Positions 4,377 through 24,037 of a stretch of DNA of 32,151 bases are shown one piece after another. How positions within the stretch are numbered: position 1 is the stretch's first letter; every line of letters starts with the position of its first letter. Position numbers and translations under genes: made by a program. This DNA is from Saprospiraceae bacterium. Lineage in GTDB: Bacteria; Bacteroidota; Bacteroidia; Chitinophagales; Saprospiraceae. Location of the stretch: NCBI GenBank assembly GCA_019634045.1, contig JAHQWA010000362.1:1-32151 (forward strand), in the 5' to 3' direction. The notes below the pieces were generated by a model. It ran no database searches. It saw only the letters and a list, made by a program, of their open reading frames with translations, and was not told the origin of the DNA.

Positions 4377-5807
4377 CTACAAATCCGGAAGCGTAACTAG
4401 CTTCCCATTAATGGTAGTGTTTTGAAGATCAAGATGCTCTACTTGTTCAAGTAGAAATGGCTCCTCAACTTTTTCTATGATTACATCTTTAAAGGTGATT
4501 TGCTCAATAGGCATCTCTGGGTGCCCTTTGGCAAGTATGGCATGTTTGCCTCCGTTCTTTACCCGGACATTTTGCAGATGTATCTTCCGGACCCGTGGGA
4601 TATGAATTCCCTCCTGATCTGCATAGGTCGCATAAAACAGATTAATCTTCAGTAAGGCTTCCTTCACTTGTCCAACTTGCAGGTCTCTGACGTACACGCC
4701 TTCCACAAAACCACCTCTTTTTGTGTTGGTCTTAATTCGAATAGCCCGATCTAGATTTGGACTATCCATGACACAATTATCGACATAGACGTTACGCACT
4801 CCTGCGGATATTTCGCTGCCCATAACGACTCCACCATGACCATCCAGCATTTTGCAATCTTTTACCACAATGTTTTCACTTACCAACCCGACACGACGTC
4901 CGTCCTCATCCCGACCCGATTTTATGGCAATACAATCATCCCCAGTATTGAACAGACAATTCTTAATGACTACGTTACGACAGTATTCCGGATCACAACC
5001 ATCATTATTGGGCCCATGGCTGTCCACTTCAACACCATCTACCGTTATATTGCTGGACTTGATGGGGTGGATAATCCAAAAAGGAGCCTGGATAATCTTT
5101 ACGCCCTGAATTAGAATGTTTTGGCAGTCAAAGAATTCAACAAAAGAAGGCCTGAGATAGTAGCCTGCTCCAAATACTCGCTCCTCTACTGGTATACCCT
5201 GGGCCGCCAGTTCAGTCAATCTGATCCGATTATCTGCCTGGTTTTGATGAGGCAATCCCTCTTTCCATCCATATTCTTCTTGCCCTTTCCAGATCCACCA
5301 ATTTTCTCGGCTGGCCTGCCCGTTGAGTAAGCCTTTGCCGGTAATCGCTATATTCTTTTTCTGGTAGGCATAAATTAGAGGAGAGTAATTCATTAGTTCT
5401 GTGCCTTCAAAGGAGGTCTGTACGACGGGTAAGTAATCAGTAGGGTCAGTGCTAAATTGCAGTACAGCATCTTCAGCAAGATGTAAATTCACATTGTTTT
5501 CCAGATGAATGGCTCCTGTATTGAATACACCTTTGGGCACTAATACGCTGCCACCGCCAGCCTTGGTACAGGCTTGAATAGCCTGCTGAATGGCATCGGT
5601 ACTTTTATCCGAGCTGCCTTCCTTAGCTCCATAATCTAGGATATTGAAAGTTTGATCCAAAAAAACCGGAGGTACGACTTCATTCAGGATGGCTTGCGCC
5701 TCGTTCCAAATGACCGTAGAGGCATCAACCACTTGCTCGGGCGTTCGATCTTGCGCCTGACAAGCTAAAAATAGTAAAGGGAGTATAGCTAATAGGGGCT
5801 TATGCAT
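4377..5807 (-). CDS. GH28 family polygalacturonase-like lipoprotein
   Basis: ORF track runs 4377-5873 with a GTG start; the internal ATG at 5807 gives a lipoprotein signal MHKPLLAILPLLFLACQAQ. 'FNILDYGAKEGSSDKSTDAIQQAIQACTKAGGGSVLVPKG', 'SHGPNNDGCDPEYCRNVVIKNCLFNTGDDCIAIKSGRDEDGR' and 'GHGGVVMGSE' are GH28 motifs. Confidence 0.92.
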   Translation of the reverse strand: MHKPLLAILPLLFLACQAQDRTPEQVVDASTVIWNEAQAILNEVVPPVFLDQTFNILDYGAKEGSSDKSTDAIQQAIQACTKAGGGSVLVPKGVFNTGAIHLENNVNLHLAEDAVLQFSTDPTDYLPVVQTSFEGTELMNYSPLIYAYQKKNIAITGKGLLNGQASRENWWIWKGQEEYGWKEGLPHQNQADNRIRLTELAAQGIPVEERVFGAGYYLRPSFVEFFDCQNILIQGVKIIQAPFWIIHPIKSSNITVDGVEVDSHGPNNDGCDPEYCRNVVIKNCLFNTGDDCIAIKSGRDEDGRRVGLVSENIVVKDCKMLDGHGGVVMGSEISAGVRNVYVDNCVMDSPNLDRAIRIKTNTKRGGFVEGVYVRDLQVGQVKEALLKINLFYATYADQEGIHIPRVRKIHLQNVRVKNGGKHAILAKGHPEMPIEQITFKDVIIEKVEEPFLLEQVEHLDLQNTTINGKLVTLPDL

Positions 5808-5869
5808 ATCTGATGGATCTTGGATAGATTTCAAATAACTCAAAGATAAGAAAGCTAAGTCATCCTTTC

Positions 5870-8566
5870 TCACTTAATCTTTATCTCAATGGTTCCTGCC
5901 TTTAAGGGGATTTTATAAGCATTTCTCACCTTTTCATACGGCAATTCCAGCGTAGTATTCGCTCTTAAAAAGGCATGAGGGGTATGTGGATCTTTTGGAT
6001 GTAAGGTAATCACTGCCTCTTCTGTGTTCGTATCGTAGCTTACCGATTTAATGGTCCCAGCATCTAGCCTTACCCATAGTTTCTTCGGTTCGATAAAGAT
6101 GCGGGACTTAGCAGCGGTAGTGAGTTCAAGGGTGAGGATGTTGTCTTGTTGCCTTAAATTGCCCCCAAAAGCTAACCAGCCCAAGTCTCCGTGATACGTT
6201 AAATAAGCGGAGGAATTCACCGCATAGCCATAGAAGCCAGAGCCATAATCCCCCGAGATGCCATCTATTTGTAAGGTAGAAGGAAAAGAATGAAAGGCCG
6301 CTGGTCCGAAACCATCCTGGGTCACATTTGAAATACTGCCCATCAGACCGCCATAGCCTATTTTTAATAAATGGAAATTTTCTGGATGCTTCCGATAGTG
6401 ATGTAGCACCGGAATCGCATTAAGGGCTGAGCCATAATGATGGATTTGTCGTTCTACTCTCGAGGTTTTCCCTGATTTGCCACCGTACAAGAAATCCCAA
6501 TATCGATGAGCATTCCCATTGTAGGCCCAATGGGCAATGGCGGGCATATACGCTAAAATGGCCTTGAGTGTGACTTCAGCCTTCCGATCATAACCAAAAT
6601 AATCTGACCACATATACACCTCTTCCTGCCCCGTACAGTCCCAAGGCATTTCGCTACCAAAAGGATACTTTAGGGCCTTCCAATGAACCGCTCGATCTTT
6701 CATTTTGGTGCTCAAGTCAGTGGCTAGCTCATTGAATTGTTCATGCTGCAAATCTTTCAATATGAACAAGAACACGGACCCCTCCATTTGCCCAAACTGC
6801 GCATAATAGGGCGCATGCTCAACCATAGCAACGATCGTATGATAGGCTTGCTGGAGATACCAGTCCCAGCTTCTGTTATTCACCAATCCCTGATGATATC
6901 GGGCCAATCGATACATGCACCAGTAAGCCGCAGCTACGTGCGGATAGTTGTACGACCGCCCGACACTTTCGGCATGTTTTTGATTCCAGGCAGCCCAAGT
7001 GGTGTAATTGATGCTATCGCTATAGGTTCCAGGCGGCAAGGAATCCGGTTCATAGAAAAAAAGGCTCTTCCTGACGGCATATTTCAGCGGACCGTCCTTG
7101 TACTGAATGCCACCCCACAGCGTACTATCTATAAAGAGTTGCAGCTTGCCGATCTCCTCCTTATCGGGCTGCACCAGCTGCTTCATCATAGCGGCTAACC
7201 AGCTACCCGCGCCACCTTCATCACTCAAACCTGCTATCCAGGCTCGGCGATCTTGCCTTATTTGGGTTTTGGTGTCATAGTCATAACTAATGACGGAATG
7301 GGTTCGATTAAAATGGGGATCCGCTTGATCAAACCATTGTTCAGTAGTCAGAAAATGCCCTAGATCATCGACGACCTCCGTTTCGGGTTTGATAACTTTA
7401 TAGTGAATCGTTTGCTTCAGACCATCGCTGTAAATGACGGTCAATCTGGATTGTCCCCATATTTTTCCGCTAAGGGTATACTTTTTTAGCCCGCTTTTGG
7501 TTTGTCCAGCTGGGGTTATTTCAAGGCTACCCGTCGGTGCGACTTCGATAGATTTTATGCCTTCTCGATAGTTGAGGAACAACTGGGCCTCTACATCTTG
7601 GGGAATCACATAACCAGGGATACCGATGCCTACGGGATGACCAATTGCTGCTAACCTTTGGGGTACACCGGCAATACTATCGGCTAGCACGAAGCGTACG
7701 GAAAAATTTTTGCTTTCCCCTGGAGCTAAGAATACAGAACTTGCGTTGTTCCATTGTTGAACACCTTTCCATTCATTTTCAGCATAGGCCTTCGAGCAAC
7801 TCATCCACTCGTGAAAGCCCTCGAATACGACCGACCTGCGAGAGGGGTCATCCAACAAAGGGCGATAAGCTTCAAAGGCCATGTTTTCGTTGGGTAAGAC
7901 CAGTAAAGTCGGTCCGCCCCCATGCAATCTTTTGACTTCCAAATAACCTGCCTCCAGGCCGATGTAAGGATCGAAAAACACATTCTGCGCATGCGCTTCA
8001 TCCAAAGATTTACCTTCCAATATATTGTTAAAGATCATGGGGATACCCAATGCGCCAATTTCAACCGCCCTGGCCACCTTATTGCTGATCTCAAATCGGA
8101 GTACCAATTGCTCCTGGTCGATTTCGTAAAACCTCTTAATGTTGACCGGTATATCAGGAGCTAAAGTATTGGCCAAATCTGCCCCCGCCAGTATGTTGTC
8201 GGTGCTGGCTAATGCGGTTACCGCAGCACGCTGGGTAGCCGTAGAATACTGCTTCCAGTCTCCCTCCGTTATTCTTAATCGGAGATTGATATCTCCCAAA
8301 TGGTAGAGGCCATCTTTATCTCTGATTTCCAACCTATCGCCTGGCGTAAAATCGAACTTAGGGTCTTCATTGGGGCGAAAAGCAGCAACGGTCTGCGAGG
8401 CCTTGACTAACTTCAGCTGAAATTGCGGCGTTTTAAATTTTTGAAACACTTCAGCGATGCCTAAGGTGGGTTTTTTCTCTGCTATGGCTTTCCAATAATC
8501 CTGCGCTTTCAGGTTTAGCAAAGGCAATAATAAGAAGGATAGGCAGATATAAAGTGGACTTTTCAT
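5870..8566 (-). CDS. DUF5695-like secreted protein, putative glycan-active enzyme of unknown specificity
   Basis: 898 aa with signal peptide (MKSPLYICLSFLLLPLLNLKAQ); N-terminal beta-rich half and Trp/Tyr-rich alpha-helical C-terminal half. Starts 5 bp after the GH127 stop on the same strand. Family name from memory of similar PUL proteins. Confidence 0.6.
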   Translation of the reverse strand: MKSPLYICLSFLLLPLLNLKAQDYWKAIAEKKPTLGIAEVFQKFKTPQFQLKLVKASQTVAAFRPNEDPKFDFTPGDRLEIRDKDGLYHLGDINLRLRITEGDWKQYSTATQRAAVTALASTDNILAGADLANTLAPDIPVNIKRFYEIDQEQLVLRFEISNKVARAVEIGALGIPMIFNNILEGKSLDEAHAQNVFFDPYIGLEAGYLEVKRLHGGGPTLLVLPNENMAFEAYRPLLDDPSRRSVVFEGFHEWMSCSKAYAENEWKGVQQWNNASSVFLAPGESKNFSVRFVLADSIAGVPQRLAAIGHPVGIGIPGYVIPQDVEAQLFLNYREGIKSIEVAPTGSLEITPAGQTKSGLKKYTLSGKIWGQSRLTVIYSDGLKQTIHYKVIKPETEVVDDLGHFLTTEQWFDQADPHFNRTHSVISYDYDTKTQIRQDRRAWIAGLSDEGGAGSWLAAMMKQLVQPDKEEIGKLQLFIDSTLWGGIQYKDGPLKYAVRKSLFFYEPDSLPPGTYSDSINYTTWAAWNQKHAESVGRSYNYPHVAAAYWCMYRLARYHQGLVNNRSWDWYLQQAYHTIVAMVEHAPYYAQFGQMEGSVFLFILKDLQHEQFNELATDLSTKMKDRAVHWKALKYPFGSEMPWDCTGQEEVYMWSDYFGYDRKAEVTLKAILAYMPAIAHWAYNGNAHRYWDFLYGGKSGKTSRVERQIHHYGSALNAIPVLHHYRKHPENFHLLKIGYGGLMGSISNVTQDGFGPAAFHSFPSTLQIDGISGDYGSGFYGYAVNSSAYLTYHGDLGWLAFGGNLRQQDNILTLELTTAAKSRIFIEPKKLWVRLDAGTIKSVSYDTNTEEAVITLHPKDPHTPHAFLRANTTLELPYEKVRNAYKIPLKAGTIEIKIK

Positions 8567-8571
8567 TTAGT

Positions 8572-11500
8572 CTATTGTTTAAGCGTGACATCAAGATAAA
8601 CAGAATGGTGGCCATAGGACTCGTAAAATGGCTTGAAGGGTACCCCCTCAATTTCAAATTCTAATTTTTTAGGATCCCCCTTAATGGATTGGCTAATGTC
8701 TGCCGCCGATAAAGTGATGACTCTCCAATCTTTTCGAGCTTCCGTTTCCTCGGCGGCTAGCAAAACTGGACCATAAAATAAACTGGCAATATTTTGCTGA
8801 TCCATGAGTGGAGCTAGATGGAACTGAAAAGGAAAATGGATTTCTATTGTATCCCCATTTTTCCATTTTCTCCGCAATTTGACATAACTCCCCGGCGTGG
8901 TATTGATAGCCTGCGGCTTGTCATTAATGGTAATGAAAGCACCTTGGGTTGCCCAATGAGGAATTCGTAGGTTAATTTCAAATTTGCCCTTGCCTTTTAT
9001 CAATATTCGACTACGGTCTTCTTTCGGAAAGGCAGTTTGTTGGACGATGCTGATCTTTCGTTCTGTCCAATCGAGGGTAGAGGGGATAAATAGATTGACA
9101 TAGAGTTGCTTATTGTCCTGACTCCTGAAGTAAATGGAATTTTGCAGCTTGGTACTGCTTTCCAAGGCCGTTCCGTTGCAACAAGTAAAGCCATTCATCT
9201 TCGCATTACCAAAATGCTTTTTCGACCCCGGTCGTAAGGGGACATGATAGGTGTTGGCGGGGCTATCCGCTGCGACCGAAGCTAATATGTGATTGTATAA
9301 AGCACGTTCATAGTAGTCCATCAATTCGCCACGTTGATCAAAAAGGAATAAGTTTTTTGTCAACTTGAGCATATTGTAGGTGGCGCAAGTTTCATTTTGC
9401 CCGCCTACGGATAGTCCATGCTCATATAAGCTGGCAGGTTCGATGGTAAAGCATTCTGCATTGGCGGGTGTCCTTGCCCCAGCCACGCCTCCGATACTAT
9501 AACTGTAATCTTGTGTGGCCTTATACCAAAAGTTATCGGCAATATGATAGTAGCTGGGGCGCTTTGAATTGCGATACATTTCCAATGCGCCTACGATCTG
9601 AGGAATGTGCTGATTGGCATGTAAGCCCCTGAAAGTATCGACATTCTTAGCTAAGCCATGGCTGCGTTTAGCATCGCCGTAAAAAACTTTAATATTGTCA
9701 AATAATTGGGCGAGTTCAAAGTAGTGTTTTTCATTCGTTAGTCGATAGAGTCTTGCCATGACTTCGTTCATGCCCCCATATTCACCGGCGATGTAGGTAT
9801 TCCACATCTTGATCAGGGTTTCATGGGGTAACTGACTGAGCCTTGCATGTACCCAAGTTCCCATCCCTTTAGCTACTTCTAGTGCCTTTTCATTACGCGT
9901 AATTTCATATATATCCAGCAGTCCTGTCAATATTTTATGCAAGGTGTAATAGGGGGCCCAAACCTTGGTGCTATCTCTACCATATTTTGCTCCTTGTTCC
10001 AGCATAATGAACTGATCTGGCGGATAAGCACTTAGGTAGCCCTTACCCCAATTCCAATAGTCAGTTCGAATGCCATTCTCGCTCAAGTCAGAATCAAAAT
10101 CAGGTTTTTCGGCGCTTGGTGGGATGGCTACAGGATCAGCATGATAGGTGCCCTGCGCTTCCTCCTGCTGATTGGGTTGACCAGATAACTGCGATAATTG
10201 ATAGAGTACGTCGACCATATACTCCATTTTATTATAAAAATTATCCTGCAGCGTTTTTGAATAGCCTGTGCTTGCATAGGCCTGCGCAAGCGCTGTGAGA
10301 TAATGACCCGTAGCATGTCCTCGCAATTTCGTTTCCTGAGAATCCCAGCCCTTCAGGGGAACGGCCCGTTTAGGTTGTTCCTGACCAAAGGCATTTCGAA
10401 ACATATACAGGAAGGCATCTGGATGGGTCTGTGCTAAGGTTGAAAGGAATAAATCTCGATGCTTGATAAACGGGGTAGGTTGACCGTGTATATCTTTGTC
10501 CAGTTGCACTTGGTGGAGGGAAAAGGGCGCTAAATTTCGGTTGGCCGCATGGGAATGATCCTTGTCAAGCACTCTGATGAAAGCCTTGGGTTTAAAAGCC
10601 GTACCGGCCACTGTGCCCGTAATCGTATATTGCCTGGGGTTCAACACCTGAAGATTGTCTGCCGGAGTAGGCCATTGGACTCGCACTTTCCCCGTCGTGA
10701 CCGCCGCTTGGTATTGGGCGGGGATGTAGCGTGGTAATCGGGGTAAATGGCCTAAGGAGGTTGTTAGCTCTATGTTAGGCACATCGATTAAGTATGGGTT
10801 GTACAGTTGCGGCCTGTTTTCATTAAATGGTGGAAGATCATCATTCGGTTGCTTTCTTTCATTGACAACAGCAGCCTCAATTTGTATAGCCTTACGATAC
10901 ATGGTAGTAATTTGTTCCTTCCTAAGTGGGATGCTATAAAACCGGAAATCATGTAGATGGGCAGTTAGAAAAATAGGCTTAGCCGCCAGGGATCGGCCTA
11001 TATAAAGTCTAGTTGCATCTGACACCTCTTGGGCGAATAGCTGTCCCAAGTCTAGATTGGGAATGTGCTTCTCTTCCGCAAGCATTCCATCCACATAGGT
11101 ATTGATGGATGGATTAGCGGGATCAACCACCACTGCAAAATGATGCCACTTTTCAGCACTTAAGGCTATCGGGCTGGCATAGCTATTGGTATCAAGGGGG
11201 GCGATAGACTCTTCATGATCATCGATGCTTTTAGCAACGATAGAAAACCTTGAGCGCTCCTCACTACCAAAGTCAAGGATGGTTTGATTAGGTTGAGTGG
11301 TAAGCATATAGACCCATCCCGTAATGCTAATTGCCTCTCCGCTCACCAACATTTTATGGGGTAGTTGAATATAATTTGCGGTGGCTGCCGAAAGGTAAAG
11401 TACTTTTCCAAAAGTATCATCACTAAGCCATTGCTGCACGCCTACTATTTGCCCATTAAAATCATTTCTGGACCAATCTTTAGCAGAATCATCCAGAATA

Positions 11501-11628
11501 TAACGAGCAATCAGCCCAGTTTCTCCGATGCCGTCTAGGAATTGATCTCCCTCTTGTGAGAAGCTAGTACTTATTGTTAAGAAATAAAGGCAGCAACAAA
11601 GAAGGTTGGATATTTTAGAATGGATCAC
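8572..11628 (-). CDS. GH127-type beta-L-arabinofuranosidase (DUF1680 class) with N-terminal LamG/concanavalin-like domain
   Basis: 1018 aa with signal peptide; N-terminal 'LIARYILDDSAKDWSRNDFNG...YIQLPHKMLVSGEAISITGWVYM...WHHFAVVVDP' is LamG-like; 'GHATGHYLTALAQAYA', 'GGQNETCATYNMLKLTKNLFL' and 'GFTCCNGTALESSTKLQNSIYF' match the GH127 catalytic Glu/Cys cluster region. Confidence 0.9.
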   Translation of the reverse strand: MIHSKISNLLCCCLYFLTISTSFSQEGDQFLDGIGETGLIARYILDDSAKDWSRNDFNGQIVGVQQWLSDDTFGKVLYLSAATANYIQLPHKMLVSGEAISITGWVYMLTTQPNQTILDFGSEERSRFSIVAKSIDDHEESIAPLDTNSYASPIALSAEKWHHFAVVVDPANPSINTYVDGMLAEEKHIPNLDLGQLFAQEVSDATRLYIGRSLAAKPIFLTAHLHDFRFYSIPLRKEQITTMYRKAIQIEAAVVNERKQPNDDLPPFNENRPQLYNPYLIDVPNIELTTSLGHLPRLPRYIPAQYQAAVTTGKVRVQWPTPADNLQVLNPRQYTITGTVAGTAFKPKAFIRVLDKDHSHAANRNLAPFSLHQVQLDKDIHGQPTPFIKHRDLFLSTLAQTHPDAFLYMFRNAFGQEQPKRAVPLKGWDSQETKLRGHATGHYLTALAQAYASTGYSKTLQDNFYNKMEYMVDVLYQLSQLSGQPNQQEEAQGTYHADPVAIPPSAEKPDFDSDLSENGIRTDYWNWGKGYLSAYPPDQFIMLEQGAKYGRDSTKVWAPYYTLHKILTGLLDIYEITRNEKALEVAKGMGTWVHARLSQLPHETLIKMWNTYIAGEYGGMNEVMARLYRLTNEKHYFELAQLFDNIKVFYGDAKRSHGLAKNVDTFRGLHANQHIPQIVGALEMYRNSKRPSYYHIADNFWYKATQDYSYSIGGVAGARTPANAECFTIEPASLYEHGLSVGGQNETCATYNMLKLTKNLFLFDQRGELMDYYERALYNHILASVAADSPANTYHVPLRPGSKKHFGNAKMNGFTCCNGTALESSTKLQNSIYFRSQDNKQLYVNLFIPSTLDWTERKISIVQQTAFPKEDRSRILIKGKGKFEINLRIPHWATQGAFITINDKPQAINTTPGSYVKLRRKWKNGDTIEIHFPFQFHLAPLMDQQNIASLFYGPVLLAAEETEARKDWRVITLSAADISQSIKGDPKKLEFEIEGVPFKPFYESYGHHSVYLDVTLKQ

Positions 11629-13380: not shown

Positions 13381-14856
13381 ATGCTACGACAAGCATCTCC
13401 TTTGTCGTGCCTGGGCACGCCTTTACCCACTTTTCCGTCCCTCCTGGTCATAGGTTTCTCTTTCCTTTGTTGTTTGTCGATTCCCAAGTACTCGAATGCC
13501 CAACATCGCGTATTCGTCTTGACGGATATTGAAAATGAGCCGGACGATGCTATGTCCATGGTTCGTTTCTTGATCTATGCCAACCACTTCGATATAGAGG
13601 GGCTAGCCGCCACTACCTCTATCCATCAACAGAATCGGGTAGCTACCTACCGGATCCGAGAAATCGTGGAAGCTTTTGCCAAGGTCAGAAACCAACTGGC
13701 GCAGCACGAGCCCGGCTTCCCGACAGCAGAACAAGTCCTTTCCTGTATTACGGAAGGCTTGCCGGAATACGGCATGCAGGCGGTTGGTGAAGGCAAAGAT
13801 TCTCCCGCTTCTGATAAGCTCATTACGGCCGTAGATAAAGATGATCCGCGACCCCTCTGGGTTACGGTATGGGGTGGTCCCAACGTACTGGCCCAAGCTT
13901 TGTGGAAGGTGAGGAAAACTCGGAGCGCAGAACAACTGAAGCAATTCGTTGCTAAGCTCCGCGTGTATACCATTTCTGATCAAGATGACAGCGGTCCTTG
14001 GATCAGGAAGGAGTTTCCGGAGCTATTCTATATCGTAAGCCCCGGCTTCAATAAGGGAGGCGCTTATCATCATGCTACGTGGAGTGGGATTAGCGGAGAC
14101 TATTTCCACGCTCGATGTGATGGAGCCGATTTTAGTCTGGTTACCAATGAATGGCTTGATCGAAATATCCGTCGTAAAGGTCCCTTAGGCGCAGAGTACC
14201 CGCATTGGGAATACTTGATGGAAGGCGATTCCCCTTCCTTTATGTTTCTGATCGATAATGGATTAAACGAGCCCGATCATCCCGATTGGGGGGGCTGGGG
14301 AGGTCGCTATGAGCTGTACACGCCCAGAATGAGAAAATGGCATCTCTATCCCGAAAGTCGCCCTATTTGGGCCGATGCGGAGGATGAAGTACTCGGCATA
14401 GATGGAAAATGGCATCAGGGCAATCACGAAACCATCTGGCGGTGGCGAGAAGCCTACCAAAACGATTTTGCGGCTAGAATGGATTGGACAATCAAGAAGA
14501 TCGAAGAAGTGAATCATCCGCCACTGCCAAAGTTAGGGCATGAGGCCAGATTAACCGCCAAAAAGGGAGATCGCGTACAATTAAGTGCCAAGGGATCTTC
14601 AGATCCTGACGGGGATGCATTATCCTACCGTTGGTTCTATTACAATGAGGCAGGTAGCTTTCCCGCTTCCAGTGCCCGAAGCGGGGAGGCGGTGGCTATT
14701 CAAAACTTTGATCAATCCGAAGCTTCCTTTGTCGTTCCAGATGGGCGAGTGATGCCCCCTGGCATAGGCAGTATGCACATCATTTTGGCGGTCACAGATC
14801 ATGGCTCCCCGCGTCTCACTCGTTATCAACGGGTAATTATTGACATTAAACCCTAA
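13381..14856 (+). CDS. DUF1593 (nucleoside hydrolase-like) secreted protein
   Basis: 491 aa; '[38 protein letters not shown]' and '[18 protein letters not shown]' typical of DUF1593; C-terminal Ig-like segment '[23 protein letters not shown]'. Confidence 0.85.
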
Positions 14857-14861
14857 TCCCT

Positions 14862-16008
14862 ATGAAAATGCCCTTTGATCTAATTTCAAATAGGAATATT
14901 GGCATTCAAAAGATGATTTGCTATGCTGCCCTTCTACTTTTAGTAGCATGCCCGTTGCTATCAAACCTCAAGGCCCAAACTTCAGTGGTAGCTGTTAGCT
15001 GGGGAGACATTCTAAAGCAGGTCCCGGATTGGTATGGAAGCCCCGAAGCCCTGCGGATTGCAGACAATGTCCTGGTCTACCAACATCGTAATGGAGGATG
15101 GCCAAAGAATAAGGATATGGCTAACATCCTAAGTTTGACGGAAGTAAAGGAAATAAGGCAAGCTCAACAGGATCTGGAAAGCGAGTTCAGTCGAACTACG
15201 ATCGATAATGGCGCTACACATACGCAAATGCGGTTTCTTGCCCAAGTGTACAAAAGGCAGCCAAAGCGAAAATACAAAATAGCCTTTCAGGCAGGCCTCC
15301 AATATCTCCTGGCAGCCCAATACCCAAACGGAGGATGGCCACAGTTTTTTCCGCTGAGAGAAGGTTATTATTCGCAAATTACCTACAACGATGATGCGAT
15401 GGTAGGTGTACTCAAAATATTGCAGGAGATAGCTTTGGATTCGTCAGACTTCTTATCACTTAAGTTGAAGAAGTCCTTGAAAGAAAAGGTAGCAAAGGCC
15501 TTTGATAGGGGGGTGAGCTGTATCCTAAATACACAGGTTTACCTTCAGGGAAAACCTACGGTTTGGCACAAATGATCGTCACACAATGGCCCCTGCCAAG
15601 GCTAGGAGCTATGAGCTGCCATCCTTGAGTGGTTCGGAGTCAGTGGGCATAATATTACTGCTAATGAACCTCGAAAAACCATCGCCTAAGATCATCGCTG
15701 CTGTGAACGCTGCCGTTGCCTGGTTAGAAAACCATAAGATCGAAGATGTCCGAGTGGAGAAACAATTGAATGCTGAGGGCAAAACAGATAAGGTAGTGGT
15801 AAAATCACCAGGTGCCCCTCCACTTTGGGGACGCTTTTATGACCTAGAGACGCAAAAACCGTACTTCTGTAGCCGAGATGGCATTAAGCGAAGGACCTTG
15901 GCGGAAATCAGTTACGAACGGCGCAATGGTTACCGTTGGTATACTTCAGCGCCAATACAAGTACTGTCGAACTATCCTCAATGGAAAGAAGACCTCCAGG
16001 CGAATTGA
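14862..16008 (+). pseudogene. PL10-type pectate lyase disrupted by a frameshift near 15565-15585
   Basis: 14862-15575 carries 'VYQHRNGGWPKNKDMA', 'TIDNGATHTQMRFLAQVY', 'AAQYPNGGWPQFFPLREGYYSQITYNDDAMVGVL'. It ends GKPTVWHK* where the family continues as VW..Q.D; 15586-16008 resumes in another frame with 'MAPAKARSYELPSLSGSESVGI...FYDLETQKPYFCSRDGIKRRTLAEISYERRNGYRWY'. Confidence 0.88.
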
Positions 16009-16043: not shown

Positions 16044-16634
16044 ATGAAGACAATAATTGAATCTGTATTAAGTGTCCCACAAGCAGAGCCAAGGAGAGGA
16101 ATAAGGGTTTACACCTTATGCACCTTTTGTATATTGTGACTATTGGGGGCATGCCAGTCGGTGGGGGATACTGCTGAAGTTGCCAAGGCTAGATCCAGGG
16201 TCTATCATAATCATACCGATGAGCGGGATACGGTTCCTGCTTATGCGGTGGTCGAATGGACTTTTACAGATCCGGCTTGGCAGGAGGATTCGGGGACAGA
16301 AAGCATCTGGATAGAAATTGATGGTCAACGAATCGATGGGTTCTACAAGGGGAGTGGCATTTACAACATTCGTTTTGTTCCTAAAAGAGCGGATCAGTGG
16401 GCGTATGAAGTGCATTGTACTACCCCGCATTTGGATGGTACCACTGGTGGCTTTGTCAGCACTGTTCCCTGGCCAGGACAGGAAAAAGCAGGTGACCTGG
16501 AAGTAAACAGATGGTGGAGTGATCGGACGGAAAGCGACACCTACCTAGATCAATATCAAGGGGCCAAGACTGTAGCTCAGTGGCGAAAAGCATATCTCTC
16601 CGACTGGGCAAACGGGCTGCAATGGTTAAAGTAA
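16044..16634 (+). pseudogene. DUF5060-containing lipoprotein with in-frame TGA (16137-16139) inside its signal peptide; possible chimera with a different C-terminal tail
   Basis: ATG at 16044 is in frame with 16143: ...LCTFCIL*LLGACQSVGD..., so the TGA lies just before lipobox LLGAC. 'YAVVEWTFTDPAW...IDGFYKGSGIYNIRFVPKRADQWAYEVHCTTPHLDGTTGGF' is DUF5060-like; tail 'VNRWWSDRTESDTYLDQYQGAKTVAQWRKAYLSDWANGLQWLK' is not. Confidence 0.65.
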
Positions 16635-16662: not shown

Positions 16663-17244
16663 TTACCCCCCAATCTGCACCGAAGTCATGGCAATTGAAC
16701 CGGCCAAAAGTTTATCATTGAATACCTTGAGTGGTTCCTGTTGCTCCTTCAAAGCGAGGGTGTAGAGCAAAGGTATGTAGTGCTCCGGGGTTGGAATCGA
16801 CAGCTGAAAGGATTTTCCTTGGGACCTGAAATCAATCAAGGCCTGGTGATTACCATCGTTAAGATACCCTTTCATCCGTTCGTTGGCTTCAATGGCCCAG
16901 TCATACCCATAATTATCAGCATTCATTTTATCCCAGGCAATCATGCTAAGATTGTGCACCATATTTCCACTGCCTATAATCAGCACGCCTTTTGCTCGTA
17001 AAGCAGAAAGCTCTTGAGCAAATTTGTAATGATACTGTGGAGATTTTCCTCGATCCAAGCTCATCTGAATCACGGGAATATTCGCATTGGGATAGAGATG
17101 TTTGATAACGCTCCATGCACCATGATCTAATCCCCAATGATGATCCATCCCCACTTCCGTCTGGGTAATCAACTTCACCGTTTCTTACGCCAATTCCGGG
17201 CTCCCAGGCGCTGGGTATGGGACTTCAAACAGTTCCTTTGGAAA
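16663..17244 (-). pseudogene. Truncated DODA-type (LigB family, class III) extradiol dioxygenase, N-terminus missing and in-frame TAA (17185-17187)
   Basis: 'MKLITQTEVGMDHHWGLDHGAWSVIKHLYPNANIPVIQMSLD' and 'GVLIIGSGNMVHNL' are typical YgiD/DODA. Reading upstream in the same frame gives FPKELFEVPYPAPGSPELA*ETVKLITQTEVG, i.e. the conserved YPAPGSPELA segment followed by a stop. Confidence 0.88.
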
Positions 17245-20369: not shown

Positions 20370-20739
20370 ATGAAGTTTTTTCAGAACCTGGTCTTATTGA
20401 TTCTCCTGTTTGGAACTGGAGCCCTGCCCATTTACGGCCAACCCTTGGCCAAGTGGATGGATGTAAGATTGGATGCTTGTGAAAAAGCAGGTATAGATGT
20501 GTACCCTTTCACAGACTTCATTATTTTTCCGAAATCGGTCTGGCATAAATATGGCTTTCAGGAATAAAGTTGAAGGAAGTATTGGGGAGTTGGCCCAGCG
20601 CATAAGACAAATTCTTAAAGAACATAACGAAAGACCAGGTATTGCGAGTGACCTTATCAATTGCATTTATCCGTAGGGCCTCAAGACCCTAGACAACTTT
20701 TTACAAGATGATCAAAATTTTATTAACAAGCTTGAGTAG
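20370..20739 (+). pseudogene. Decayed secreted protein gene of unknown family (frameshift near 20555, in-frame TAG at 20674-20676)
   Basis: Signal peptide MKFFQNLVLLILLFGTGALPIYGQ then PLAKWMDVRLDACEKAGIDVYPFTDFIIFPKSVWHKYGF; frame +1 continues FRNKVEGSIGELAQRIRQILKEHNERPGIASDLINCIYP*GLKTLDNFLQDDQNFINKLE*. Confidence 0.5.
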
Positions 20740-23700
20740 ACCTCTAGCTATTGGCTTGCTACTACTTGCACTTGGATGTAAAAATGAGGCAAGTCTTGAT
20801 CAAGCAGAGCGAAACAAATCCACGCTCGCTTTCGAGTTAAAGCCCGGTAAGGAAACGGGCATTAATTTCAATAATCACGTAGAGGAAAGATATGAGACTT
20901 TCTTCGACAAATATGCATACATCTACACTGGGGGAGGGGTAGCGGTGGGAGATATCAATAATGATGGCCTCCAAGATGTCTACTTCACCGGAAATGAGGT
21001 AAGCGATAAACTCTACCTCAATCGCGGAAACTTCCAATTTGAAGATATAACCGACAGTGCGATTACAGCTGGACAGGACGGCTGGCACAACGGCGTCACG
21101 ATTCTAGACATCAATGCTGATGGGTTAAATGACATCTATGTCTGTAGAGGAGGCTGGAAGGAAACGCCGGATCAGCGCAAAAATCTACTATACATCAATT
21201 CCGGGGACGCCACATTTGTAGAAAGTGCTGAGGAATACGGTTTGGCAGATGAAGGTTATAGCATGCAAGCCTTGTTCCTAGATATTGACAACGATAATGA
21301 TCTGGATCTATACCTGACCAACCGCCCCGATGAATATTACCTACCCTTATCGGTCATGAAGGAGCGTGCTGCAAGTGGGCCAGATTGCTGCAGCGACCGT
21401 TTATATCGCAATGACGATGGCAAATTCGTAGATATCAGTCGTGTCGCTGGAATTGTAAACTACGGCTATTCCCTAGGCCTTGCGGCTGCCGATTTTAATA
21501 ATGATGGCCTAATCGATGTCTATGTGAGCAATGATTTTGCCACAGTAGACCACATGTATATCAATCAAGGAGACGGGACCTTTGTAGATAAACTGCAAGC
21601 GGCGACCAATCATATTTCCCTCTTCTCCATGGGTACCGATGTTGGGGATATCAATAATGATGGCTTGGAAGACATTATTGTCATGGAAATGCGTCCAGAG
21701 GATTATGTCCGATCCAAAGTCTCTATGCCTCCCATGAATATCGAAGGTTTTCATGCTATTGTAGATGCTGGCATGCATAAGCAGTATATGCACAACATGC
21801 TACATCTCAATCAGGGGAAAGGTCTTTTCAGCGAGGTGTCACAGATCGCAGGTATCGCCAAGACGGACTGGAGTTGGTCTGGTCTATTTGGAGATTTTGA
21901 TAAGGATGGGTATCGAGATCTATATGTGACTAATGGCATGCGAAGAGATCTTTTTGATGGGGATGCCCGCCGGAGACTCTCCAACTATGTGGAAGAAAAT
22001 CGGACTGCCTTTCAAGACACCGCAATTCTATTTGGAACTGGCTTCCAAGGGATTCTAGAGAATTACAAACCCTTGAAGTTAAAGAACTATTTGTTTCAAG
22101 GGCATGGTGATGTCTCCTTTACCAAAGCAAATGGAGGCTCTAGTACCAGCATACCCAGTTTTTCCCATGGTTCGGCGCTAGCAGATTTTGACAACGATGG
22201 GGATCTAGATATTGTGGTCAATAATATGGAAGATCAAGCTTTCTTGCTTGAAAATACATCTACAACTACTAATGCTTGGACAAAAGTCAAGTTGGAAGGA
22301 CCACAAAATAATGCCCATGGAATAGGTGCGAAGGTGTGGGCTCATAGCGATGGCCAGACTCAATTCTTCCAGCAGAAGATCATCAGAGGGTATCTCTCTT
22401 CCTGTGATCCCCATATCTTTTTTGGTTTGGGTGAAAATACCAGCTTAGACAGTCTTGTTGTACAATGGCCAGATGGCAAAAAAAGCATCTTGACTGATCA
22501 GCCTATCAATGAACGGGTCATCATAAAATACAAGGATGATCTGCCCATCGCGGAGGCTCAGCCAACTCAAAACAAACTATTTGCTGAAGGGAAGGCTTAT
22601 CTAGACCCACCTCATGTCGATGTAGAAAATGAAGTCTTTGAGTATGGCAAGCAGGTATTACTACCACATAGCTTTGCGACCGCCGGCCCCAAAATGTCAT
22701 CTGCCGACTTGAACGGTGATGGGGTAGAGGACTTTTACGTGGGTGGAAGCAGGAGTGAAGCAGGAAGCCTTTACCTGTCCTCAGGTGATAAATGGCTCAA
22801 AAGCGATCAAAAGGCCTTCTATTTGGATCGAATTTTTGAAGATATGGGATCGGTCTTCCTAGATATTGATTTGGACGGTGATCAGGATCTTTATGTCGTC
22901 AGTGGAGGGAGTGAGAGTGCCGGGGGCGAGCTGGTCTATCAAGATCGATTATATGAAAACCAAGCGGGAATATTTGTGAAATCAAATCTTCCACAAATTA
23001 GAGCCAATGGCTCTCAAGTTCTTAAGTATGACTTTGATCAGGATGGGGACCTGGATCTTTTTGTGACAGGCTTTGTACGTCCCAATGAGTATCCATTAGG
23101 GGATGCTTCCTTCTTTCTGGAGAATCAAGACGGCAACTTATCGCCCGTAAATTGGTATGGAGAACTGTTGTTTGACCTGGGGATCATATATGATGCAACC
23201 GTAGCGCAATTGGATGAAGATGCAGAGATGGAGTTAGTGCTAGTAGGAGAGTGGATGCCGATTACGATTCTAGATTGGACAGGTCAAGGATTTGAAAATA
23301 AAACGGAGATCTTTGGCTTGGAAAATACCGTTGGCTGGTGGACTAGCATTGAAAAAGCCGACCTAGACAAAGATGGTAAGGAGGACCTGATCGTCGGAAA
23401 TCTGGGAGAAAACTACAAGTTTAGCGTCGATAATGCACATCAATTTGAGGTATTTGCGGATGACTTTGATCAGAATGGAACCTATGATGTATTCCTGGCT
23501 ACCAGCTCGGAGTATGGTCATAAACCTGTTCGTGGTCTGGAATGCTCTTCAGAGCAGATGCCACAAATTTCTCAAAAGTTTGAGTCCTTCGCCTCTTTTG
23601 CCAGTGCGGAGATAGATGATGTCATTGGGCCCGGTATATCGAAAGCAGAGCATCGGAAAATCGACCTCTTCTCTAGTATGGTACTCTACAACAATGGAGA

Positions 23701-24037
23701 TAAGAGTTTTGAAATGAAAAAACTTCCGAAGGAGTGCCAGTTGTCTGTAATCAATGCAGTGGTCGTTAAAGATTTGGATGAAGATGGTTGGTTAGATCTC
23801 ATTACAGCAGGCAATAGGTTTAATGTTGAGGTAGAAACTACCCCTTCCGATGCCTCCATGGGAGCTGTACTGATTAACAAGGGAGATAGAACCTGGGCTA
23901 CCATGAGACCGATGGAAAGCGGAATTTACCTCAAAGGGGATGTAAAAGACCTAATCTTTATCAACGACAATTTGATTACTACGGAAAATAGTGGTCCGGT
24001 GCGGATCTTTACCAAGAAACCCCAAGCAGCCTTATAG
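20708..24037 (+). CDS. FG-GAP/VCBS repeat lipoprotein with ASPIC/UnbV-type domain
   Basis: 1109 aa; lipobox LALGCKNE; many D-x-[DN]-x-D-G-x-x-D repeats ('VGDINNDGLQDVYF', 'DFNNDGLIDVYV', 'DFDNDGDLDIVV', 'DFDQDGDLDLFV'); 'SLDSLVVQWPDGKKSILTDQPINERVIIKY' is ASPIC/UnbV-like. Confidence 0.9.
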   Translation: MIKILLTSLSRPLAIGLLLLALGCKNEASLDQAERNKSTLAFELKPGKETGINFNNHVEERYETFFDKYAYIYTGGGVAVGDINNDGLQDVYFTGNEVSDKLYLNRGNFQFEDITDSAITAGQDGWHNGVTILDINADGLNDIYVCRGGWKETPDQRKNLLYINSGDATFVESAEEYGLADEGYSMQALFLDIDNDNDLDLYLTNRPDEYYLPLSVMKERAASGPDCCSDRLYRNDDGKFVDISRVAGIVNYGYSLGLAAADFNNDGLIDVYVSNDFATVDHMYINQGDGTFVDKLQAATNHISLFSMGTDVGDINNDGLEDIIVMEMRPEDYVRSKVSMPPMNIEGFHAIVDAGMHKQYMHNMLHLNQGKGLFSEVSQIAGIAKTDWSWSGLFGDFDKDGYRDLYVTNGMRRDLFDGDARRRLSNYVEENRTAFQDTAILFGTGFQGILENYKPLKLKNYLFQGHGDVSFTKANGGSSTSIPSFSHGSALADFDNDGDLDIVVNNMEDQAFLLENTSTTTNAWTKVKLEGPQNNAHGIGAKVWAHSDGQTQFFQQKIIRGYLSSCDPHIFFGLGENTSLDSLVVQWPDGKKSILTDQPINERVIIKYKDDLPIAEAQPTQNKLFAEGKAYLDPPHVDVENEVFEYGKQVLLPHSFATAGPKMSSADLNGDGVEDFYVGGSRSEAGSLYLSSGDKWLKSDQKAFYLDRIFEDMGSVFLDIDLDGDQDLYVVSGGSESAGGELVYQDRLYENQAGIFVKSNLPQIRANGSQVLKYDFDQDGDLDLFVTGFVRPNEYPLGDASFFLENQDGNLSPVNWYGELLFDLGIIYDATVAQLDEDAEMELVLVGEWMPITILDWTGQGFENKTEIFGLENTVGWWTSIEKADLDKDGKEDLIVGNLGENYKFSVDNAHQFEVFADDFDQNGTYDVFLATSSEYGHKPVRGLECSSEQMPQISQKFESFASFASAEIDDVIGPGISKAEHRKIDLFSSMVLYNNGDKSFEMKKLPKECQLSVINAVVVKDLDEDGWLDLITAGNRFNVEVETTPSDASMGAVLINKGDRTWATMRPMESGIYLKGDVKDLIFINDNLITTENSGPVRIFTKKPQAAL

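Follow-up and report, generated by a model that had tools for sequence, protein, structure and literature searches.

The window analysed here, a stretch of 32,151 nucleotides from a Saprospiraceae bacterium, carries at positions 5870 to 8566 of its minus strand an intact open reading frame with an ATG start. It encodes a protein of 898 aa (P0001) with a Sec-type signal (MKSPLYICLSFLLLPLLNLKAQ; residues 1-22, positions 8501 to 8566, minus strand, read from the translation by eye). The original prediction of a secreted DUF5695 protein at this place was borne out by the HMM search, in which the protein matched the Pfam profile PF18951 (DUF5695) with 1267.4 bits against a gathering cut-off of 25.2, residues 52-879 aligning to profile positions 1-830 of 857. 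Given such a full-length match, the frame is not a chance ORF, and P0001 is a full member of a family whose function is unknown. The motifs quoted earlier (WDWYLQQAYHTI, GQMEGSVFLF and EMPWDCTGQEEVYMWSDYFGYD) all occur in the translation. The Cys of a WDC motif was considered as a catalytic Cys and dropped, since most relatives have Ser at that position. No NCBIfam model matched the protein, and a literature search for DUF5695 or PF18951 returned no functional description, but one incidental and irrelevant table mention in a paper on a fungal regulator. The gene is present as a single copy in the genome of the window and is uncommon, occurring in 14 genomes of a phylum-wide sample of 396 Bacteroidota genomes. 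P0001 shares 57-86% identity with its relatives from Flavobacteriaceae, Sphingobacteriaceae, Prolixibacteraceae and other groups, the closest one being L002 (86%).

The preceding gene on the same strand (8572 to 11628) terminates at 8572 and leaves 5 bp up to the DUF5695 ATG, as had been described. According to profile searches, its product combines LamG and Big_4 modules with a GH127/GH146-type beta-L-arabinofuranosidase. The earlier assignment to GH127 needs correcting: the product is nearer to solved GH146 structures (5opj, BT0349, E 2.9e-66; 8k7y, 5.9e-35) than to those of GH127 (4qjy, 1.2e-18; 3wkw, 1.6e-9). Its residues E746-x-C748 and C816-C817 fit the Zn Cys3-Glu signature, and it shares this E-x-C...CC signature, the LamG and the Ig-like modules with the GH146/GH127 beta-L-arabinofuranosidases BT0349, Bll3HypBA1 and Bll1HypBA1 (PMC10850190). 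GH146 includes enzymes acting on Araf-beta-Hyp (XeHypBA1, Bll4HypBA1) as well as on Araf-beta-1,3-Araf of AGP (PMC10850190). The partner belongs to these families, whereas DUF5695 does not, and the partner would cleave some type of beta-Araf linkage. A role in the degradation of RG-II, suggested by a match of the partner to aceric-acid hydrolase, was dropped, since its score, 97 bits, falls short of the 950 required.

On the other side of DUF5695 lies, on the same strand, a GH28 gene (4377 to 5807), whose closest NCBIfam model, matched below its cut-off, is the alpha-D-galacturonidase BT4155. The automatic call (4377-5873) starts from a GTG that overlaps the stop codon of DUF5695. Judged from the sequence, the true start is probably an ATG in the same frame at 5807, which gives a lipoprotein signal (MHKPLLAILPLLFLAC), so that the GH28 gene is probably separated from DUF5695 by 62 bp. 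We found no GH28 gene beside DUF5695 in any of 80 other loci. GH28 is a local neighbour, not a conserved partner; we dropped it as a functional partner, and the pectic target that had been deduced from it is not supported.

The pair of GH146-like and DUF5695 genes sits in the window among GH106, KduI-like, GH28, Sde182-like, interrupted PL10, GH115 and SusCD genes, and the hydroxyproline (Hyp) cluster of this genome (DHDPS, epimerase and DAO) is found on another contig (C302). L002 keeps the pair, and its contig stops there. In the lineage of the window the pair may have moved into, or may serve beside, a pectin-type cluster.

Several further genes of the window deserve a comment. The gene for an Sde182-like protein with a nucleoside-hydrolase fold (13381-14856, plus strand; PF07632 and PF21027) adjoins that of a PL10-type pectate lyase (PF09492), which is split into two frames on the plus strand (14862-15575 and 15586-16008, covering profile positions 1-157 and 167-291 of 292) by a frameshift or an assembly error in the contig. 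Two short ORFs between the pectate lyase and GH115 (16143-16634, plus strand, and 16663-17178, minus strand), with matches to DUF5060 and LigB-dioxygenase, are probably gene remnants. Directly before the SusC/SusD pair, an FG-GAP repeat/ASPIC-UnbV protein of 1109 aa is encoded (20708-24037, plus strand); in L025, similar proteins (36-37% identity) are encoded immediately upstream of the pair of GH146 and DUF5695 genes.

An AlphaFold2 model of P0001, built with 61 homologues, reached a pLDDT of 86 and a pTM of 0.89. DSSP divides this model into an N-terminal beta-sandwich region (residues 41-392; positions 7391 to 8446, minus strand), part of which is profile-aligned to residues 205-381 of 5no8, a helical (alpha/alpha) toroid presumed to be the catalytic domain (residues 395-784; 6215 to 7384, minus strand) and a C-terminal beta-sheet domain (residues 787-897; 5876 to 6208, minus strand). 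In a Foldseek search against the PDB both entries of polysaccharide lyase family PL27, 5nok and 5no8, ranked first (E about 1e-25, TM 0.79 by target length), while the next match had an E of 8.6e-6 and a low TM; a previous model of lower quality agreed with this. PL27 enzymes consist of an N-terminal beta-sandwich plus an (alpha/alpha) barrel and cleave the Rha-GlcA of gum arabic by beta-elimination (PMC8377490). The computational evidence thus shows, at the level of the predicted model, a beta-sandwich and (alpha/alpha) barrel of PL27 type, in agreement with the beta-rich half and the toroid anticipated from the sequence. The L-rhamnose-alpha-1,4-D-glucuronate lyase BACCELL_00875 (5nok/5no8) has the same sandwich and barrel, whereas the C-terminal sheet is extra in DUF5695.

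Single-sequence comparison detects no similarity to PL27, and identity by structure is about 13-14%. Neither phmmer with P0001 nor a profile of 26 close homologues found any chain of the PDB, PL27 included. A divergent DUF5695 paralogue (L016 13379-16096), however, finds 5no8 by sequence alone (E 2.6e-4), and a joint profile including it has 5no8 as its only match (E 6.5e-11), the alignment covering parts of the sandwich as well as of the toroid. Remote homology of DUF5695 to PL27 is thereby shown computationally, by profile comparison. A clear match to a characterised CAZy family, named at the outset as a refuting outcome, was thus obtained only as a remote resemblance to PL27 in fold and profile, and there is no direct sequence match to such a family. 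The paralogue itself, a protein of 905 aa encoded on the plus strand of a metagenome-assembled relative about 6 kb from the canonical DUF5695 gene, scores 170 bits to PF18951, has 19-24% identity and lacks the RYWD and HHY motifs; it probably represents another subfamily bridging to PL27.

A search with a 212-aa fragment of 5no8 found no PL27 genes in the 396 Bacteroidota genomes and so gave no material for a profile from the PL27 side; instead, HMMER alignments with chimeric queries supplied the PL27 residues. In the motif R537-S-Y-N-Y-P-H543 (6938 to 6958, minus strand) R537, Y539, N540 and Y541 align with R447, Y449, N450 and Y451 of the PL27 motif R447-G-Y-N-Y451, and R537, Y541, P542 and H543 are invariant in 61 relatives. 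E639 of the motif S638-E639-M-P-W-D643 (6638 to 6655, minus strand) corresponds in a chimeric alignment to the E of the PL27 'HEVNYE'. The motif N683..R688-x-W690-D691 (6494 to 6520, minus strand), located in a loop with pLDDT below 50, is common to PL27 (N..R-H-W-D) by chimeric-query alignment; D691 is invariant in the 61 relatives, and N683, R688 and W690 are conserved in at least 90%. H709-H710-Y711-G-S713 (6428 to 6442, minus strand; at least 90% conserved) aligns with P-H-Y-W-S, and chimeric queries add Y634-P635, P762 and D768. Probable PL27 counterparts thus exist for Y539, Y541, Y711, R537, N683, R688 and H710, by chimeric query in the C-terminal part. The mapping past residue 543 of 5no8 is less certain, because it comes from a single chimeric alignment and the model is of low confidence in the loops 683-712 and 757-760. 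DUF5695 and PL27 hence probably have a set of toroid pocket residues in common (R-x-YNY, E, N..R-x-WD, HY-x-S), as far as alignments can tell. By contrast, H543, H759, E595, E648 and E649 differ or are missing in PL27; within DUF5695 the last three show no or almost no variation. The toroid does contain invariant acidic residues, as had been anticipated. Arg, Tyr, Asn, His and Trp are residue types used by toroid lyases, and a 2017 JBC paper on the PL27 structure reportedly assigns the role of the base to a tyrosine.

The gene neighbourhood was counted in 80 DUF5695 loci from named genomes. A LamG-Big4-GH127/146 protein of about 1018 aa is encoded near DUF5695 in 65-66 of them, followed in frequency by a DPP-IV/S9 peptidase (43-46), DUF885 (38), GH43 (34-35), the FAD oxidoreductase DAO (20-24) and the proline racemase family (17-18). 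Also recurrent are Xaa-Pro dipeptidase, an amino-acid permease, DUF6055, GH42, GH36, GH97, DHDPS, aldehyde dehydrogenase, the ornithine-cyclodeaminase family, and araA, araB and mutarotase together with an AraR-type NUDIX regulator. In L003, genes for DHDPS, ALDH, a proline racemase-type epimerase, GH146, DUF885, DUF5695 and GH43 follow each other in this order on one strand with gaps of -4 to 74 bp. An epimerase of this type, DAO, DHDPS and aldehyde dehydrogenase make up the pathway from trans-4-hydroxy-L-proline to alpha-ketoglutarate, and the epimerase retains both catalytic-type Cys. Distant DUF5695 members keep part of the neighbour set; one of them (G227) has a minimal DUF5695-DUF885-DPPIV unit among housekeeping genes, away from other CAZyme genes, while the neighbours of some relatives (L107, L108) are uninformative.

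A prolyl-peptidase or Hyp/Pro-catabolism marker was present in 58 of the 80 loci compared with 2 of 40 arbitrary 20-kb regions from six DUF5695-bearing genomes (Fisher 2e-13). As the 80 loci are phylogenetically non-independent, with many from Flavobacterium and Muricauda, the test on an independent phylum sample is the fairer one; there, 7 of 13 loci had the marker (3e-4 against the same controls), although a few of these 13 genomes may duplicate strains already represented among the 80. In 7 of the 14 genomes with DUF5695, the genome's sole PF05544 gene (proline racemase/Hyp epimerase) is 3.6-17.9 kb away from it (P about 7e-13 with genomes treated as independent), and 4 of the 14 have no such gene. 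DUF5695 also co-occurs with a long GH146: 14 and 12 of the 396 genomes have the one and the other, and 10 have both (P 3e-15).

The conserved prolyl peptidases, Hyp and arabinose catabolism, GH146 and GH43 point to a hydroxyproline-rich glycoprotein (HRGP) as the target. On balance, we favour with some reserve the reading that DUF5695 is a secreted, exo-acting enzyme of PL27 fold which deglycosylates HRGPs of the extensin type; we infer both the catalysis and the Hyp-linked glycan substrate. The pocket of DUF5695 would remove the outer part of a Hyp-linked glycan, such as the extensin-type Hyp-arabinosides of plants or algae, in an exo manner. The remaining arabinose would then be cleared by the GH146-like beta-L-arabinofuranosidase encoded next to it, joined in most relatives by GH43, prolyl peptidases (likewise in most relatives) would degrade the bared peptide backbone to free hydroxyproline, and this would be epimerised and oxidised to alpha-ketoglutarate. 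Of the side chains proposed originally, containing uronic acid or arabinose, the arabinose part survives, whereas the context gives uronic acid little support.

Three enzymes break down Hyp-arabinosides in Bifidobacterium and Xanthomonas: GH43 (alpha-1,3), GH121 (release of beta-Ara2) and GH127/146 (PMC6085000, PMC7263609). This trio logic of HRGP degradation (PMC6085000, PMC7263609, PMC10850190) speaks for the reading favoured here. Like the trio HypAA (GH43), HypBA2 (GH121) and HypBA1 (GH127 or GH146) of Bifidobacterium longum and Xanthomonas euvesicatoria (PMC6085000, PMC7263609), the DUF5695 loci encode GH43 and GH127/146; unlike it, they have DUF5695 in the third place and are extended by prolyl peptidases and a complete Hyp pathway. 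By analogy, DUF5695 may fill the role of GH121, a suggestion we make tentatively. Neighbour annotation, without a dedicated GH121 search, identified no conserved neighbour as GH121, and DUF5695 itself differs from GH121 (HypBA2 beta-L-arabinobiosidase), which is defined by its fold with conserved Glu383, Asp515 and Glu713: 6m5a was absent from the 50 best Foldseek matches of P0001, and there was no sequence match either.

Several observations count against HRGP deglycosylation by DUF5695. The window gene lies beside GH28, GH106, PL10 and GH115, a set resembling one for pectin or glucuronoxylan, with the Hyp cluster on a different contig; informative neighbours are lacking in L107 and L108, and PF05544 in 4 of the 14 genomes; and the residues shared with PL27, read in the C-terminal part from a chimeric query, appear to resemble a lyase site more than that of a known glycosidase. 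DUF5695 could also be read as a PL27-like exo-lyase which removes rhamnose (or other sugar) caps from the glucuronic acid ends of AGP by Tyr-based beta-elimination. The fold and profile matches are to PL27 only, the common Arg, Tyr, Asn and His, along with Trp, favour elimination, and AGPs are likewise rich in hydroxyproline, so that the peptidase and Hyp genes would fit as well. Elimination, however, needs a uronate, and GH88/GH105, required for the removal of the unsaturated uronate, was not found within 20 kb of DUF5695 in the 14 genomes (genome-wide, one lacks it entirely and three have weak matches only). RhaA was above its cut-off in none of the 14, although other rhamnose pathways exist, while L-arabinose isomerase is present in 12 and the conserved loci carry arabinose rather than uronate or rhamnose catabolism. 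The context thus argues against a rhamnose-glucuronate target, E595, E648 and E649 lack a PL27 counterpart, and we regard such a lyase as rather unlikely. For the reasons of co-localisation and sugar catabolism just given, a glycosidase acting on the arabinosylated part is our preference over the lyase, albeit a tentative one.

The view taken originally, in which DUF5695 works with GH28 and GH127 as an exo-glycosidase on RG-I or RG-II side chains containing uronic acid or arabinose, is supported by the neighbours in the window (GH28, PL10, GH106, GH115, KduI) and by the 62-bp spacing to GH28. With no GH28 beside DUF5695 in the 80 other loci, and peptidases, Hyp catabolism and GH146 as the conserved partners, we consider it improbable. 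Less probable still is a non-catalytic protein with a degenerate toroid, binding glycopeptides or serving as a processing partner of the GH146 enzyme; it would be compatible with the invariant residues being no more than catalytic candidates, but the very high conservation, with relatives from many Bacteroidota families 57-70% identical over 900 aa, and invariant pocket-type residues in common with an active enzyme, PL27, speak against it.

Among the components of the cell walls of plants and green algae, HRGPs are major and recalcitrant. Trios that degrade the glycans are already known from Bifidobacterium and Xanthomonas, and in the literature we found no description of a Bacteroidota locus joining deglycosylation, prolyl peptidases and hydroxyproline catabolism. 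It is quite possible, if somewhat short of probable, that DUF5695 founds a new PL27-fold CAZyme family for Hyp-linked arabino-oligosaccharides (or caps) and marks such an undescribed locus for the use of whole HRGPs. A specific role and a testable substrate for a functionally uncharacterised family would then lie behind an ordinary-looking CAZyme neighbourhood. In that case the gene could mark HRGP use by bacteria of marine, phycosphere and soil habitats, and the enzyme could serve as a tool for structural work on extensin or AGP. Neighbourhoods of DUF5695 with genes for HRGP use were seen in many marine and soil bacteria.

Two further protein families at these loci were noted. DUF885 proteins (L006 8207-9913, L098 11366-13081) have a signal-like N-terminus and could be secreted prolyl peptidases acting in this pathway. 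Proteins with DUF6055 are encoded next to DUF5695 in about 16 of the 80 loci (for instance L065 15118-16719, L045 20621-22663 and L032 15120-17798) and may be another unknown part of a glycoprotein-degrading locus.
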